64,000 nt of DNA from Bacteroidota bacterium (GTDB lineage: Bacteria > Bacteroidota > Ignavibacteria > Ignavibacteriales > Melioribacteraceae): NCBI GenBank assembly GCA_018829205.1, contig JAHJUE010000009.1, positions 62,001 through 126,000 on the forward strand, read 5' to 3'. Position 1 is the stretch's first letter. The number at the start of each line of letters is the position of its first letter. The notes under the pieces are model-generated. The model was not told the DNA's origin, searched no databases, and saw nothing but the letters and a program-made list of their open reading frames with translations. Position numbers and translations under genes: made by a program. This document shows, in pieces, positions 53,890 through 62,082 of this stretch.

Positions 53890-56800
53890 ATGGATTCCGT
53901 TGATAACAAAAAAATGAAAGTTACATTTGAGGAAATATTTGACGCGGCGCCGGTCGGAATTCTAATTTTTAATGATGAGTGGATTATTACTCATGTAAAT
54001 CAGAATTTTATAAGGTTCGGATTACTTAAAGATGAATTCGGCGGGTATCTTGTTCATAAAAATATAATAAAGCAGGAAATATTTGAAAGTATTGATATAA
54101 TCCGGGAAGTTAAAAATCTTTTCCGCGGCGATCCGTTTGAAAAAGAATTATTAAATGTAAAAACTTTTGAAGGTGGCGAACTTAGCATTCTCGTTAAAGG
54201 TACGCCTCTTTTTGAAGGGGAAAAATTCCAGGGCGGAATTCTTATTATAGAGGATATAAAAATAGGTCTCGACGTTCAAAAAGAAAAATTAATACATTCA
54301 AAATATTTCAGCGATTTATTAAAAGGAATTAGCAGTCATTTTTTCATTACCGATAACTCTGGAAAGGTAAAGTATTCTTCGTTAAACGGCGAAGTAAGCC
54401 AGTTCAAATCCTTTCTCTCAAACTACGGCGGAAAATCAAATTCTTTGTTTACTTTAATATCATCGAATAAATTAAAAGATCTATTTGAAAAAGTTAATGA
54501 GAAAAAAGAACCCTTAAACGCAATTGTACCTACCGAAATTTCGGGCGATCTTTTTAATTACAGGGTGACTCTCGTCCCGCTTCTTTCAACAAGTAATGTA
54601 ATCCAGTTTGTTATTGTGCTGCTTACGGATATTTCAAAGGAAGCGGAAGATCTGGAATATTTAGGGACTGAAATTCACGAGTTAAGAACATTCAGGGATA
54701 TTACTTTAGCTATTGTAGATGCTGTTATAAATATTAATATTGAAGGCAAAATAATTCTCTGGAATGAAAAAGCAGAAAAAGTTTTCGGTTATTCGAACAA
54801 AGAAGTTCTAAATCAATTCCTCGGGAAAATTCTTCCTTCAATTGATCATGAATATTTTCAAAGAATTAAGGAAGAATTAAAAAGAAGCAATATCTGGGAA
54901 AGCGAAATAAAAATCGCCAAAGATAATCTTGAAGTAGAATATTTATCAATAAAAATGGGAATAGTCGGGAAGGATGAAAATCAATCCATTGTAATGCTTT
55001 GTACAAATATTACACGGCGCGCTTTGATGGAAAGAGAATTAAGGCAGTCCGAAGAAAGATTCAGGAATATTGTTACCAATACCCGCGAATATATTTGCAC
55101 ACTCGACTTAAAAGAAAATATAACATACGTAAATCCTTATTTTTCCAAAACATTTGATTACCCGGAAAATGAACTTATGGGGAAAAGTTTTAAGGATTTA
55201 ATTGAAGAAAATTATATAAATGAAAACGGGTTCGCGGTCGAGAAAATAATTTCGGATAAACCGGATTCCCTCGAACTTCCCCTAATCAAAAAAGACGGTT
55301 CCAAAGTTTATGTGCTTTCAAGTTTTACACCTGTTAAAGATTTTAACGGAACGGTAAGATTTTATAACGTTGTGCTTACCGATATAACGGTCAAAAAAGA
55401 AGCCGAAAAAGATCTGCTTTTAGTGCGCTCTGTATTTGATGCGTCACAGGACGGAATTGGCGTAAGCACAGGCAATAAGCTGATATTGGTTAATGAAAAC
55501 TTTGCGAATATTTTCGGATATGAGGACACTAAAGAAGTGCTGGGCAAATCCTCTCTTGAATTTGTCGATTTAGTAGATAGAAAAAGAGTTGAAGAAATAA
55601 TTAAAAAAAGATCCGAAGGCAAAGAGGTTGAAAACAGGTATGATTTTGTAGGCGTAAGAAAAGATAATTCCAAATTTTATGTCGAAGCTTCCGTTACTTC
55701 ATATGTAAGCGATAATGTTACTTATACCGTTTCTGTTATGAGGGATATAACTGAACAGAAAATTGCCGAAGAAAAAGTTAAAGAATCCGAAGAAAGATAT
55801 AGGAGCATTACCGAAAATATAAATGAGTCAATGTGGACGGCAGAAAGAATCGGCGAAAAATTAAAAGCGGTTTTTTATACGTCTGCTATAAAAAAAATTA
55901 CGGGTTACTCTAATGAAGATTTTATTTCCAATAAAAAATTATGGTTTAATATTATACACCCGAACGACAGCGAATTTGTATTAAAGAAATTAAAAAGACT
56001 TTACCGCGATCCTGCGCGTACTTCCGACGAAATTGAATATAGAATTCAAAATAATATCGGAAATATTGTATGGATAGAAAATAAAATAAACGTTGTGCGT
56101 AATAAAAAAGGCATTATACAAAAAGTATACGGCGTTGTTAGCGATATTACATTAAATAAAAGAGCTGACGAAGAGTTCAGAAAATCTGCCGAAAATCTGA
56201 AACAGTTAAATGAAACTAAGGACAGGTTTATTTCAATTATTTCTCATGATTTGCGCACGCCGTTCAGTTCAATCCTTGGTTTTACCGACCTATTGCTAAC
56301 GGACAGGCATATGCCCGAAGATAAAAAAATACAGTACGTTGAGTTTATCCAGGAATCATCTCGTAATATGCTTTCATTGGTTAATTCGCTGCTTGATTGG
56401 ACAAGGGTGCAGACAGGCAGAATCCGTTTTGAACCGGAAAGAATGAACGCTAAATATATTGTTACCAAAGCCATTCAAATGTTATCCGGCTCGGCTATGC
56501 AGAAAAATATTAATCTTTATTCGGCTATTGAAAATGATGTATTTATTTATGCCGATGAGGATCTCCTGCTTCAGATATTAAATAACTTAATCTCAAATGC
56601 CATTAAGTTCACACGTATTAACGGCACAATAAGTATTCACAGCGAATTACTAATTGATGAAAGAAAAGTAAAGTTTACCGTGAAAGATACAGGAGTTGGA
56701 ATTAAAGAAGAAAACCTTACTAAACTTTTTAAAGTGGATACCAAATTTACTTTAAAAGGTACAGAAGGCGAAAAGGGGAGCGGATTGGGTTTGTCGCTTG

Positions 56801-57276
56801 TTCATGATATTGTGCAGAAACACGGCGGCGATATTTGGGTAGAAAGTAATTACGGACAAGGATCGGAATTTATGTTTACTATACCGATTGCCTCTACAAA
56901 AATTCTTCTGGTAGAGGATATAAATACCGATAGAATACTTTATACAAAATTAATTAAAAGTATTATGCCTAATTTCGAAGTTATTGAGGCTAAAGACGGA
57001 AGAGAAGCATTCGAAATAATTAAATCTTCGCAGCCGGCGCTTGTTATTACAGATCACCAAATGCCCGTCATGAGCGGTTATGATCTTGTAAAACAAATGA
57101 AAATTACCGACTTAAAATATATCCCACCGGTAATAATTTTAAGTAGCGATTTGAATAATACAATTATTGATGAATACAAAGAAATGGGGATTGAATATGT
57201 ATTTTCAAAACCTGTAAATCTTTCCAGTTTTAAAGTAGCTGTTGATAATTCATTAAAGAAAGCGATATTTAACTAA
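53890..57276 (+). CDS. Soluble multi-PAS hybrid sensor histidine kinase/response regulator
   Basis: A 1128-residue cytoplasmic signalling protein with no membrane helix. About six PAS-type domains cover residues 12-755, with the clearest from about 265 onward. They are followed by HisKA with the phospho-acceptor in SIISHDLRTPFSS (near residue 785). Next comes an ATPase domain with NAIKFTR, DTGVGI and GSGLGLSLVHDI, then a C-terminal receiver domain with the phospho-aspartate in VITDHQMPVMSG (near residue 1055) and the lysine in FSKPVN. The receiver suggests a phosphorelay, but no HPt protein or output regulator is next to it. It sits first in a row of three signalling genes. Confidence 0.93.
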   Translation: MDSVDNKKMKVTFEEIFDAAPVGILIFNDEWIITHVNQNFIRFGLLKDEFGGYLVHKNIIKQEIFESIDIIREVKNLFRGDPFEKELLNVKTFEGGELSILVKGTPLFEGEKFQGGILIIEDIKIGLDVQKEKLIHSKYFSDLLKGISSHFFITDNSGKVKYSSLNGEVSQFKSFLSNYGGKSNSLFTLISSNKLKDLFEKVNEKKEPLNAIVPTEISGDLFNYRVTLVPLLSTSNVIQFVIVLLTDISKEAEDLEYLGTEIHELRTFRDITLAIVDAVININIEGKIILWNEKAEKVFGYSNKEVLNQFLGKILPSIDHEYFQRIKEELKRSNIWESEIKIAKDNLEVEYLSIKMGIVGKDENQSIVMLCTNITRRALMERELRQSEERFRNIVTNTREYICTLDLKENITYVNPYFSKTFDYPENELMGKSFKDLIEENYINENGFAVEKIISDKPDSLELPLIKKDGSKVYVLSSFTPVKDFNGTVRFYNVVLTDITVKKEAEKDLLLVRSVFDASQDGIGVSTGNKLILVNENFANIFGYEDTKEVLGKSSLEFVDLVDRKRVEEIIKKRSEGKEVENRYDFVGVRKDNSKFYVEASVTSYVSDNVTYTVSVMRDITEQKIAEEKVKESEERYRSITENINESMWTAERIGEKLKAVFYTSAIKKITGYSNEDFISNKKLWFNIIHPNDSEFVLKKLKRLYRDPARTSDEIEYRIQNNIGNIVWIENKINVVRNKKGIIQKVYGVVSDITLNKRADEEFRKSAENLKQLNETKDRFISIISHDLRTPFSSILGFTDLLLTDRHMPEDKKIQYVEFIQESSRNMLSLVNSLLDWTRVQTGRIRFEPERMNAKYIVTKAIQMLSGSAMQKNINLYSAIENDVFIYADEDLLLQILNNLISNAIKFTRINGTISIHSELLIDERKVKFTVKDTGVGIKEENLTKLFKVDTKFTLKGTEGEKGSGLGLSLVHDIVQKHGGDIWVESNYGQGSEFMFTIPIASTKILLVEDINTDRILYTKLIKSIMPNFEVIEAKDGREAFEIIKSSQPALVITDHQMPVMSGYDLVKQMKITDLKYIPPVIILSSDLNNTIIDEYKEMGIEYVFSKPVNLSSFKVAVDNSLKKAIFN

Positions 57277-57513
57277 TATTTATTTTTGCCGGAAAAAATG
57301 TTTTTATCGTTTTTCCTTTCTATTATATCTCTATTTCTTAATTAGATATTCTATTTAGATCAAATCTTCAGTTTGATAACGGAAAAATTTACCTTCCTCA
57401 AATAACAATTTAAAGCTAAAACTTTTCATAATGTTTTCGATAATAAAACCTGAAGGGATTATTATGCTAATATACCCCTAAAACCAATACTTAAAATATA
57501 ATTGGAAAGAATA

Positions 57514-59334
57514 ATGTCGTTTTCAAATTTAAAACTTAGATCAAAAATTCTAATTACATTCCTTGGAGCTATCTCCGTAATTATGGCGTTTGTGCTCATT
57601 ACCAGCACAAATTTAACCTCTGACGCAATTAACGAAAATGTAAAACCTTTACATAAAGTATATGCCGAACTTGCAAAAGAGGAGATAATCGGTGGAGTTC
57701 AATTTAATGATCCTATGGATGTTGAAGGTTCTTTAGCAGGTTTTCTGGCTCAGGAAATCTTTTCCTATATAAAGGTTACGGGGAATAAAAACAACGTATT
57801 GTTTGAATATAGAAAAGAAGGATTTTCTGATTTATCAAACCTAAGTAAGGAAGAATTAAATGAATTTGATAACGAAATGTTTGAAATTCTTCCTATTGAA
57901 TCGGGTAATGAAATGATCGGTGAGTTAATTATTGGAATTAAACTTGATGAAAGAAATCAATCCATAAATTTTATTCGTATTGCATTTTTAATTCTTGCCT
58001 TTATTGCCATTGCTATATTTGTTGTTATTACTTTTATGTTTTCTGTTAAGATAATGAACCCGATAAAAAAACTCGCCGACGGGGCGGCAAAGGTAGCCGC
58101 GGGAAATCTTTCCGTACAGGTGCAGTATAATTCAAACGATGAATTGGGGGAATTGTCGAAATCTTTTAATTCAATGGTAATAAGTTTGAACAAAGCAGAA
58201 AAAGAATTAGTGGATGAAAAAAGCAGTATTGAAAAGAAAGTTGAAGAGGCTGTTAAAAAATCAGAATTGCAGAAAGAGTATTTAACAAAAAGCATTAATA
58301 CGCTGCTTGTGGAAATGGATAAGTTTTCTAGCGGCGATCTATCAGTTTCATTAAATTCCGAACAAGATAATGATATGGTGGCGGACTTATTTAACGGATT
58401 TAATAAGGTTGTTTCTAATATATCTAATATGATATCCAACGTTACCGACGCTGTTAAAGCTACCTCTCAGGCTAGTCTGCAAATTAGCACAAGCAGCGAA
58501 GAAATGGCCGCCGGGGCTCAGGAGCAAAGCGCGCAGACTTCTGAAGTTGCGGCAGCAATTGAAGAAATGACTCGCACCATTCTTGAAACAACTCATAACG
58601 CAACAACTGCGGCACAAAAATCAAAAGATGCGGGACAAGTGGCAATCCAAGGCGGCAAGGTAGTTGAAGATACAATTTCAGGTATGAATAGAATTGCCGA
58701 AGTTGTTAAACAATCTGCCGATATTGTAAAAACTCTGGGAAAAAACAGCGATCAGATTGGTGAAATAATTCAAGTAATTGATGATATAGCCGATCAGACA
58801 AATCTGCTTGCGCTAAACGCTGCGATTGAAGCTGCAAGGGCGGGCGATCAGGGAAGAGGTTTTGCCGTTGTTGCAGATGAAGTAAGAAAACTGGCGGAAA
58901 GAACTACAAAGGCTACAAAAGAAATAGCGGGCATGATTAAGAAAATTCAAAATGATACGGGCGGCGCCGTAAGTGCAATAGAAATGGGCACAGAAGAGGT
59001 TGAAAAAGGTAAATTATTAGCTGGTAAAGCCGGGGATTCTTTAAAAGAAATTATCAGAGAGACTAATGAAGTGGTTGATGTTATTAATCAGGTAGCCGCT
59101 GCAAGCGAAGAACAATCGGCTACTTCCGAACAAATAAGTAAAAATATCGAAGGTATAAGTAATGTTACCCATGAAAGCGCGGCTGGCGTTCAGCAAATAG
59201 CATCTGCGTCCGGAAACCTGAACGAATTAACCGATAATTTGCAGAAATTAATTTCTCATTTTAAATTGGCTGATAATATAAAAAAGCAAAACAAAAGCAG
59301 ATTGAAAACTGAAAAATCTAATTTACTGAACTAA
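57514..59334 (+). CDS. Membrane-bound methyl-accepting chemotaxis protein
   Basis: A 606-residue transmembrane chemoreceptor. One membrane helix near residues 10-30 is followed by a periplasmic domain of about 120 residues and a second helix at about 155-180. A HAMP domain ([22 protein letters not shown]) comes next, then a second HAMP-like segment ([14 protein letters not shown]). The cytoplasmic signalling hairpin has the highly conserved tip [31 protein letters not shown]. No C-terminal CheR-binding pentapeptide is seen. ATG at 57514 is preferred to a TTG four codons earlier because GGAAAG precedes it. Its signalling half is very close to that of the gene at 59746. The ligand is unknown. 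Confidence 0.94.
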
Positions 59335-59560: not shown

Positions 59561-59745
59561 ATTAAATTCTTAACCATAATTATCCGACTATATCTAAGAT
59601 TAATTTCATGTATTTATATTTTGAAATATCATAATTACTTGTTTTGAATCAACAAAAATATTTTTAGAAAGAAAGTTTAATTTAAATATAAAGCCGTACT
59701 GAAACCATTTTGTGTAAATTTATATAATTATTAAAGGACTTTAAA

Positions 59746-62082
59746 ATGAATCTTTCCAAAATTATTAATGTTGACGAAGAAAAATGCATTAACTGCTATC
59801 AATGTATTTCAGTTTGCCCGGTTAAATATTGTAATAATGCATCCGGAAATCATGTAGAAGTTGACCCGGACTTATGTATTGGCTGCGGAAAATGTATTGA
59901 CGCTTGTACACATGAAGCTAGAATTGGGATTGATGATTTTGATAAATGGATGATTGATATAAATAACGGTGCTAATATTGTCGCAATAGTTGCTCCTGCA
60001 ATAGCGGCGAATTTTCCGAATGAGTATTTAAATTTTAACGGATGGCTAAAATCTTTAGGCATCAGAGGAATATTTGATGTTAGTTTTGGTGCCGAGCTGA
60101 CAGTTAAAAGCTATTTGAATCATATTCAAAAAAACAAACCTGCCTGTGTTATTGCACAGCCTTGCCCGGCTTTAGTTACCTATATTCAAATCTACAAACC
60201 TGAACTAATTGAGCATTTAGCTCCGGCCGATAGCCCAATGACGCATACAACAAAAATGATAAAAAGTTTTTATCCGCAATTTTCTAACAGCAAAATTTTA
60301 ATTATATCCCCTTGTATCGCTAAAAAAAGAGAATTTGATGAAGTGGGAATTGGCGATTATAATGTTACAATGAAAAGAATATCCGAATATTTTAATAAGA
60401 ATAATATCTATTTGTCAAAATTTCCCAAATTAGATTATGATAATCCCCCCGCCGAAAGAGCAGTTTTATTTTCAACACCAGGAGGATTGTTAAGAACCGC
60501 TGAAAGAGAATTCCCGGGTGCGGTAAATATTGCGCGGAAAATTGAAGGTCCCGAAATCATTTATGAATATTTGAATCATCTTCATAAAAATATTAATGAT
60601 AAGAAAGCCCCGTTGTTAATTGATTGTTTGAATTGCGATATGGGTTGCAACGGTGGTACTGGAACCGACAAGAATAAAACCGTGGACGAAGCCGAATATT
60701 ATGTTGAGAAAAGAAGTATTGAAATGCAGAAGAAATATAAATCATCATTGTCAAAAAAACCGTCCCTTACTAAAATTAGAAAAACAGTAAACAAGTACTG
60801 GAACGAAAATATTTATAAGAGAACTTACAAAAACCTTTCTTCAAATTTGAAATCGAAAATAAAACAGCCGACAGAAAATGAATTAAAAAAAATATATGAA
60901 AGCATGCTGAAATTTAATAAGGAAGATATTAGAAACTGCTCTGCCTGCGGATATAATACTTGCGAAAATATGGCTACGGCAATTTTTAATAATTTGAATA
61001 AAGTTCATAATTGTAATTTATACCTTGAAAAGTTAGAAGATCAAGTAGCATTAAATTTGGAAAATGTAAATAAGTTTTCCGACGGTGATCTTAGTGTTGT
61101 ATTTGATGATCAAGGCAACACCGAAGTTTCTATTTTATTCAAAGAGCTTAATACCGCCGCACGTCATTTTAAAGAAACTATAATTGGACTTATTGATTCA
61201 ATACAATTAATAAGTCAAACAAGTTCTAAATTATTAATAAGTTCGGACGAAATGGCCGCCGGAGCTAAGGAACAAAGTTACCAGACAAATAATGTAAGCA
61301 ATGCTGTTGAACAAATGGCATCTACTATTATGGATACAAATCATAATGCGGGAATTGCCGCCGAAAAATCTAAGCTTGCCGGTGAAATTGCAAGAAGCGG
61401 TGGATCGGTTGTTCAAGAGACAGTAAACGGAATGAAGAAAATTGCTCTTGTTGTCAGCCAATCGGCCGAAATTATAAAAGAACTCGGCAATAACAGTGAT
61501 CAGATTGGAGAAATTATACAGGTAATTGATGATATTGCCGACCAGACAAATTTACTCGCTTTAAATGCCGCCATTGAAGCAGCTAGGGCAGGTGAACAAG
61601 GTCGAGGTTTTGCTGTAGTTGCTGATGAAGTTAGAAAATTAGCGGAAAGAACAACAAAAGCAACTAAAGAAATTGCAGGTATGATAAAAAGAATACAAAA
61701 TGATACAAGCGGCGCTGTTATTGCTATTGATAAAGGAACAGAAGAAGTTGAGAAAGGCAAAGAATTAGCCGAAAAGGCAGGAGAATCGTTAAAAGAAATT
61801 ATAAAAGGTACTTATGAAGTGGTTGATGTTGTTAATAAAGTCGCCGAAATAAGCGAAGAGCAATCCGGAGCGGCAGAATTAATCAGCAAAAATATAGAAG
61901 GAATTAATATTGTGGCGCACGAATCTGCGCAAGGTGTTCAACAGATAGCAATTGCGGCCGATGACTTAAACAGACTTACGGAAAATCTGCAGAATCTGGT
62001 AGGCAGATTTAATCTTGGCAATAGAAATGAAATTATTGCTGTTAAAAAGAAATCTGATAGAAAAAAAATAATTGGCTATTAA
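59746..62082 (+). CDS. [FeFe]-hydrogenase-like sensor domain fused to a chemoreceptor signalling domain
   Basis: A 778-residue soluble fusion. Two 4Fe-4S motifs (C14, C17, C20, C24; C44, C47, C50, C54) precede an H-cluster domain. Its motif L1 is AQPCPAL (C140), L2 is SPCIAKK (C190, K193) and L3 is CLNCDMGC (C297, C301). All four H-cluster cysteine ligands are kept, but the extra L1 cysteine of catalytic enzymes (TSCCP) is proline here. A four-cysteine Fe-S motif follows (C398, C401, C406, C423), as in HsfB-type sensory relatives. Then a HAMP-like SDGDLSV linker and a chemoreceptor hairpin with [12 protein letters not shown] near 605-616. There is no membrane helix. It probably senses H2 or redox state and signals to CheA. 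ATG at 59746 has AAAGGA upstream. Confidence 0.92.

Follow-up and report, generated by a model that had tools for sequence, protein, structure and literature searches.

A conserved gene joining a sensory [FeFe]-hydrogenase-type module to a chemoreceptor signalling hairpin in an Ignavibacteria genome, and its proposed role in sensing H2 or redox state

What would a soluble protein sense if the iron-sulfur and active-site domains of an [FeFe]-hydrogenase were followed, on the same chain, by the signalling hairpin of a methyl-accepting chemotaxis protein (MCP)? This question is raised by a gene found in a 64-kb stretch of genomic DNA (hereafter, the window) from a member of the Ignavibacteria. 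The fusion gene is real, conserved, functional-looking and of a known kind; its product is probably a cytoplasmic chemoreceptor that uses a low-turnover sensory [FeFe]-hydrogenase as its input and responds to H2 or to redox state, with H2 as the best single explanation for the stimulus.

Regarding its composition, the sequence-only reading of this DNA had described one uninterrupted frame that joins two 4Fe-4S motifs, an H-domain, a four-cysteine motif and an MCP hairpin, with no membrane segment, and the Pfam searches of the translated product agree with the order of these parts (Table 1). All eight cysteines of the ferredoxin motifs (C14, C17, C20, C24 and C44, C47, C50, C54) and the four of the C-terminal Fe-S site (C398, C401, C406, C423) are invariant in 60 aligned sequences. 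The Fe_hyd_lg_C match is above its Pfam cut-off of 22.1 bits and covers positions 2-244 of the 245 of the model, and that of PF04060 (FeS), over residues 397-423 (1.8e-4), reaches 21.6 bits, just under the cut-off of 23. As for the membrane, the maximum hydropathy over 19 residues is only 1.36, compared with the 3.19 reached by the membrane MCP of the adjacent gene, so that the fusion has no membrane span, as had been claimed. Pfam gave no match to a PAS domain in the protein; an Rfam scan of the window gave no match at gathering thresholds, and promoter and terminator scans were near the shuffled expectation.

Table 1. Parts of the fusion gene and the neighbouring MCP gene, in window positions.
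Feature	Position (strand)	Description	Evidence
Neighbouring membrane MCP	57502..59334 (+)	CHASE8-like, HAMP, MCPsignal; just upstream of the fusion	
Shine-Dalgarno-like AAAGGA	59733..59738 (+)	5' of the fusion start codon	sequence
Whole gene	59746..62082 (+)	778 aa, ATG start; Fd - H-domain - FeS - HAMP-like - MCP hairpin	
Two [4Fe-4S] ferredoxin motifs	59758..59925 (+)	residues 5-60	Pfam Fer4, 1.5e-10
H-domain	59974..60657 (+)	residues 77-304	PF02906 (Fe_hyd_lg_C), 3.3e-31, 109 bits
L1 motif AQPCPAL	60154..60174 (+)	C140 (CpI C300), H-cluster ligand; P139 (C299), proton-relay position	
L2 motif	60307..60336 (+)	S188 (M353), C190 (C355), K193 (K358), E196 (E361); CpI numbers in brackets	
L3 motif	60622..60666 (+)	L295 (M497), C297 (C499), C301 (C503); CpI numbers in brackets	
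C-terminal [4Fe-4S] site, C-x2-C-x4-C-x16-C	60937..61014 (+)	residues 398-423	Pfam PF04060
HAMP-like unit (putative)	61015..61173 (+)	residues ~424-476; helix 424-445, GDL connector, start of long helix	inferred
MCP signalling domain	61363..61908 (+)	residues 540-721	PF00015, 2.2e-50, 171 bits (cut-off 34.6)
Hairpin tip	61546..61629 (+)	residues 601-628	sequence

Two artefacts were considered and rejected. A separately translated MCP half is disfavoured because, judged by a simple pattern, none of the in-frame starts in the stretch from codon 405 to codon 560 has a Shine-Dalgarno-like sequence before it, and because fused orthologues are the rule; an assembly chimera is disfavoured by the intact fused orthologues in five other searched genomes and in many independent assemblies.

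The protein also has a part that the sequence-only reading did not list, the putative HAMP-like unit, which links the Fe-S site to the hairpin. Its match to the Pfam HAMP profile (PF00672) is below the cut-off (E 0.12, 13.1 bits versus 25); by homology the region corresponds to the second of the HAMP-like units in the neighbouring MCP, and its helices are predicted in the full-length AlphaFold2 model. From this unit to the C-terminus the fusion and the neighbouring MCP are 63% identical over 336 residues, and they differ at one position within the 28 residues of the tip, the usual CheA/CheW-binding part of MCPs. The best fused orthologue is 57.5% identical to the fusion in the C-terminal half and 74% in the sensor half; the output half is thus nearer to the neighbour and the sensor half nearer to the orthologue, a pattern suggesting that the output half descends from the neighbouring MCP type or was exchanged with it. 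The strict methylation-site consensus, present in the neighbouring MCP, was not found in the fusion, which has relaxed matches only; this is a point against the chemoreceptor reading. Upstream of both MCP genes and on the same strand, positions 53890-57276 encode a large multi-PAS hybrid histidine kinase with a receiver domain.

A structure prediction, which the sequence-only reading had proposed as a check, produced a confident AlphaFold2 model of the sensor (residues 1-445; pLDDT 94.5, pTM 0.92, 60 sequences) with a fold like those of CpI and CbA5H. Foldseek matches had E values down to 3.7e-18, and the comparison gave Z scores of 39.4 for CbA5H and ~35-37 for CpI, over ~345 residues at 2.6-2.9 Å; these fold matches span residues 1-370 and hardly test the C-terminal Fe-S domain. 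In the full-length model (pLDDT 83.3, pTM 0.63) the output half is a helical hairpin, formed by residues 460-614 and 616-753 with the turn near 615.

The active site was compared by aligning the fusion with the host's own HydA and with relatives, using the CpI numbering. The four H-cluster cysteines (C140, C190, C297, C301) are invariant across all the sensory copies compared, and every one of the 66 MCP-fused copies keeps the equivalents of C300, C355, K358, E361, C499, C503 and S323. These same 66 copies all have proline for C299, serine for M353 and leucine for M497. Among sensory sequences, ~10% have proline for C299 and ~32% have serine for M353 (PMC10055695); TamHydS, the group D protein from Thermoanaerobacter mathranii, likewise has serine at the M353 and leucine at the M497 position (PMC11803613). 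All three replacements are inside the range reported for sensory types.

The proton path of group A (C299, E279, E282, S319) is not kept in the fusion, which has P139, A159 in place of S319, and neither glutamate. As for the group D path, group A has a valine at the place of TamHydS E252 (PMC10407848); placed by this published description, E252 would correspond to L248 of the fusion if its place equals CpI V423, and with a leucine there the group D path would be missing; the place of TamHydS E289 would fall on D293, going by its offset from M497. The loss of the group A path favours the main rival to H2 sensing, namely that the protein is a redox or O2 receptor acting through its [4Fe-4S] clusters, with a retired hydrogenase fold whose H-domain holds the cubane and no [2Fe] subcluster. 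This reading is rather unlikely: the residues of the [2Fe] subcluster site (the K358, E361, S323 and C503 equivalents) are invariant, and both TmHydS and TamHydS have no such path and still bind a working H-cluster (PMC10055695, PMC10407848).

Hydrogenase-chemoreceptor proteins have already been proposed from genomes, and the fusion is not categorically new; the suggestion in the sequence-only reading that its architecture might be unreported is not supported. In HydDB (2016), the class description of group C2 reads "[FeFe] chemotactic (putative)", with the role listed as undetermined (PMC5037454); the trait of that group, a hydrogenase associated with an MCP, is found here as an MCPsignal domain in the same chain. 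Compared by class description only, the fusion shares with C2 an H-domain tied to an MCP and the proposed H2 sensing, and it adds the HAMP-like linker and an Ignavibacteria host (PMC5037454). A 2022 survey described C2 likewise and discarded its own C2 hits during validation (PMC9431212), and a statement in PMC4704652, citing Warnecke 2007, proposes that sensory hydrogenases serve for orientation in the H2 gradients of the termite gut. No experimental study of any hydrogenase-MCP fusion was found in a literature search that covered a minority of subscription papers, which makes the negative result a weak one.

Among the known sensory proteins, TmHydS (group C, Thermotoga maritima) has, like the fusion, a ferredoxin domain, a four-cysteine H-domain and a C-terminal Fe-S site, and it also replaces C299, M353 and M497, with A, G and S rather than P, S and L; after the Fe-S site, however, it has a PAS domain where the fusion has the MCP hairpin (PMC10055695). 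Since no PAS domain was matched, the fusion is not classed with the proteins of TmHydS type. TamHydS resembles it in having two ligands of the C-terminal site 25 residues apart (C379 and C404, against C398 and C423 in the fusion; PMC13104023), but lacks an output domain (PMC13104023, PMC10407848, PMC11803613); in TamHydS, H2 reduces an N-terminal cluster, and a redox change of the C-terminal cluster was not seen with H2 (PMC13104023), the latter being a point against the chemoreceptor reading. The host itself encodes a sensory hydrogenase linked to a histidine kinase (L005 11367-13355; HydDB C1-like), with the same Fd - H-domain - FeS input at ~30% identity; it differs in its histidine-kinase output, in having G at the M353 position and FCEGCINGP as L3, and in lying within a hydrogenase cluster. 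Finally, the HydS-like protein of Ruminococcus albus 7 (RUMAL_RS17375, pRUMAL01) shares the sensory hydrogenase module and the C-terminal Fe-S motif, but has C, G and S at the 299, 353 and 497 positions and is followed by a separate SpoIIE phosphatase gene.

Regarding the distribution, a search of 58 genomes, mostly of the same family and order, returned five fused orthologues besides the window's own, with 60-69% identity over the query and 59-74% in the sensor half among the Ignavibacteria fusions, together with a separate histidine-kinase-linked class at ~30%. A scan of named genomes gave 274 candidate loci, and a quick tree that included the best 80 of these 274 placed 79 rows in the sensor clade; the tree came from a short search, has long inter-group branches and was used solely for clade cohesion. 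An MCP domain is present in 67 of the 79 rows (66 by profile, plus the Acetoanaerobium copy by Pfam); the others have no output (7), SpoIIE (3), PAS (1) or a histidine kinase (1). The clade extends over about ten phyla (Ignavibacteriota, Spirochaetota, Bacteroidota, Acidobacteriota, Verrucomicrobiota, Planctomycetota, Fibrobacterota, Thermodesulfobacteriota, Auribacterota and Bacillota), with the proviso that most rows are MAGs, so that an individual assignment could be mistaken. How far the hairpin tip lies from the last Fe-S cysteine varies between lineages (178-179 residues in Ignavibacteria, 125-129 in most spirochaetes and 67-96 in some others), as expected if linker and output have been remodelled. 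Bacteroidota copies that stop after the Fe-S domain were seen at seven loci (L048, L050, L051, L054, L057, L059, L094); in L050 the sensor gene comes after genes for dCache/HAMP/GAF proteins without a recognised output domain. One treponeme MAG has two sensor genes of the family in tandem (L080 3720-5801 and 5980-8067).

The retention of the H-domain fold and of every cluster ligand would also suit a plain hydrogenase enzyme, in which the C-terminal helix serves for scaffolding or polar localisation alone, without signalling. This is extremely improbable, given that the complete signalling tip is conserved, that the proton-path residues of the catalytic group are lost, that the same sensor is joined elsewhere to SpoIIE, PAS or histidine-kinase outputs, and that at two loci cheB and cheR lie directly 3' of the fused gene, with cheA further along (L042, L047). 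CheA was found in 41 of 43 genomes tested, including all 31 with an MCP-fused copy; the two without it (L051, L072) have sensors without an MCP domain. The host encodes two CheA proteins; the gene for the first belongs to a flagellar/che cluster, and that for the other to a separate che cluster along with genes for CheB, CheD, CheR, an MCP and CheW (named from their sequences).

As for maturation, the host has adjacent genes for HydG and HydE (L121; 545 and 343 bits, above the NCBIfam cut-offs) and a gene for HydF (540 bits). Among the relatives, hydG and then hydE lie directly 3' of the fused gene on the same strand in L037; L115 has overlapping fused and hydG genes and then hydF, with hydE divergent. 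Maturase genes adjoin the sensor gene in two phyla, which, with the host's HydE, HydF and HydG, argues against a redox receptor devoid of [2Fe]. The interpretation given in the sequence-only reading is partly supported: a hydrogenase-type sensor and a chemoreceptor share one soluble polypeptide, the host has the maturases, CheA and flagellar genes, and relatives show operon links to hydEGF and che genes. H2 is the presumed stimulus, and the [2Fe] subcluster is presumably loaded in the fusion.

It should be noted that HydG is undetectable in ~40% of the genomes with the wider family, and this is the main caution for the H-cluster reading; many genomes of family members are without HydG and some also without HydF, in favour of the redox alternative. 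HydG exceeds the cut-off in five of the six Ignavibacteria with the fusion, and in 34/43 and 12/36 of the wider genomes; within Ignavibacteria, its co-occurrence with the fusion (5/6 versus 24/52) is not significant (Fisher p 0.19), and it was undetected in a genome with a fused copy that is 99% complete (G031). However, many HydG-negative genomes carry canonical hydrogenases, so that a missing HydG is not peculiar to the sensor, and its absence was rejected as a disproof of the H-cluster for that reason and because most of these genomes are MAGs of unestablished completeness; they are either incomplete assemblies or use a different maturation. Three near-complete genomes of relatives within the order (99-100%, 1-6 contigs) have a canonical HydA-type hydrogenase and no HydG match; HydF is kept in two of them (G035, with L159, and G048) and missing from the third (G044). 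Termite-gut treponeme MAGs (e.g. G110, G112, G113, G116, G117, G125) have hydrogenases above 300 bits with HydG and HydF undetected.

In one branch of treponemes, of rumen type, the L3 motif reads GCNCG and not GCNGG (L083, L096, L100, L101, L106-L109, L112, L113, L116), and of the 11 genomes in this branch 10 are without HydG; these count in favour of redox sensing as one lineage and not as independent evidence. A broader proposal, speculative and on balance doubtful, is that the sensor is an H2-taxis input of wide occurrence, coupled in about ten phyla to different outputs (MCP, SpoIIE, PAS, histidine kinase), from which the GCNCG branch dropped [2Fe] and came to sense redox by means of a remodelled Fe-S site; if true, it would be a natural switch from H2 sensor to redox sensor inside one receptor family.

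For the chemoreceptor responsive to H2 or redox state, the events would run as follows. HydE, HydF and HydG would load the H-cluster onto its four cysteines; H2 would react there and, by analogy with TamHydS, pass electrons to the N-terminal [4Fe-4S] clusters; a shape change, suggested by the anatomy of the protein, would reach the hairpin by way of the C-terminal Fe-S domain and then the HAMP-like unit, and the hairpin would alter CheA activity and with it flagellar rotation, the host having CheA, CheW and flagellar genes. Swimming would then be biased by the H2 tension or by an H2-set redox poise, with a sign of response that is not predictable.

CO binds H-clusters in general, and the host, with its COX1-family oxidases, would meet gases besides H2. 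That a small molecule other than H2, for example CO, is what the fusion detects at its H-cluster is nevertheless very improbable, since the known sensory types are more CO-tolerant than the prototypes (PMC11803613) and the same genome has hydrogenases and a kinase-linked sensory hydrogenase. The remark in the sequence-only reading about a cbb3 oxidase is plausible, on the basis of a COX1-family match at positions 29-1321 of the window, minus strand.

No tested receptor for H2-directed swimming was found, although such proteins have been inferred from genomes for years. The host combines a complete set of maturases with flagellar genes and a kinase-linked paralogue of the sensor, and within the sensor family the outputs and the altered active sites form a natural series; with these, hydrogenase-driven chemotaxis becomes a directly testable question. 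The host also has two HydA-type hydrogenases, and in the second of them (L005 5375-7291, minus strand) L1 reads TSCSPGW, a serine replacing the second cysteine of the common TSCCPGW.
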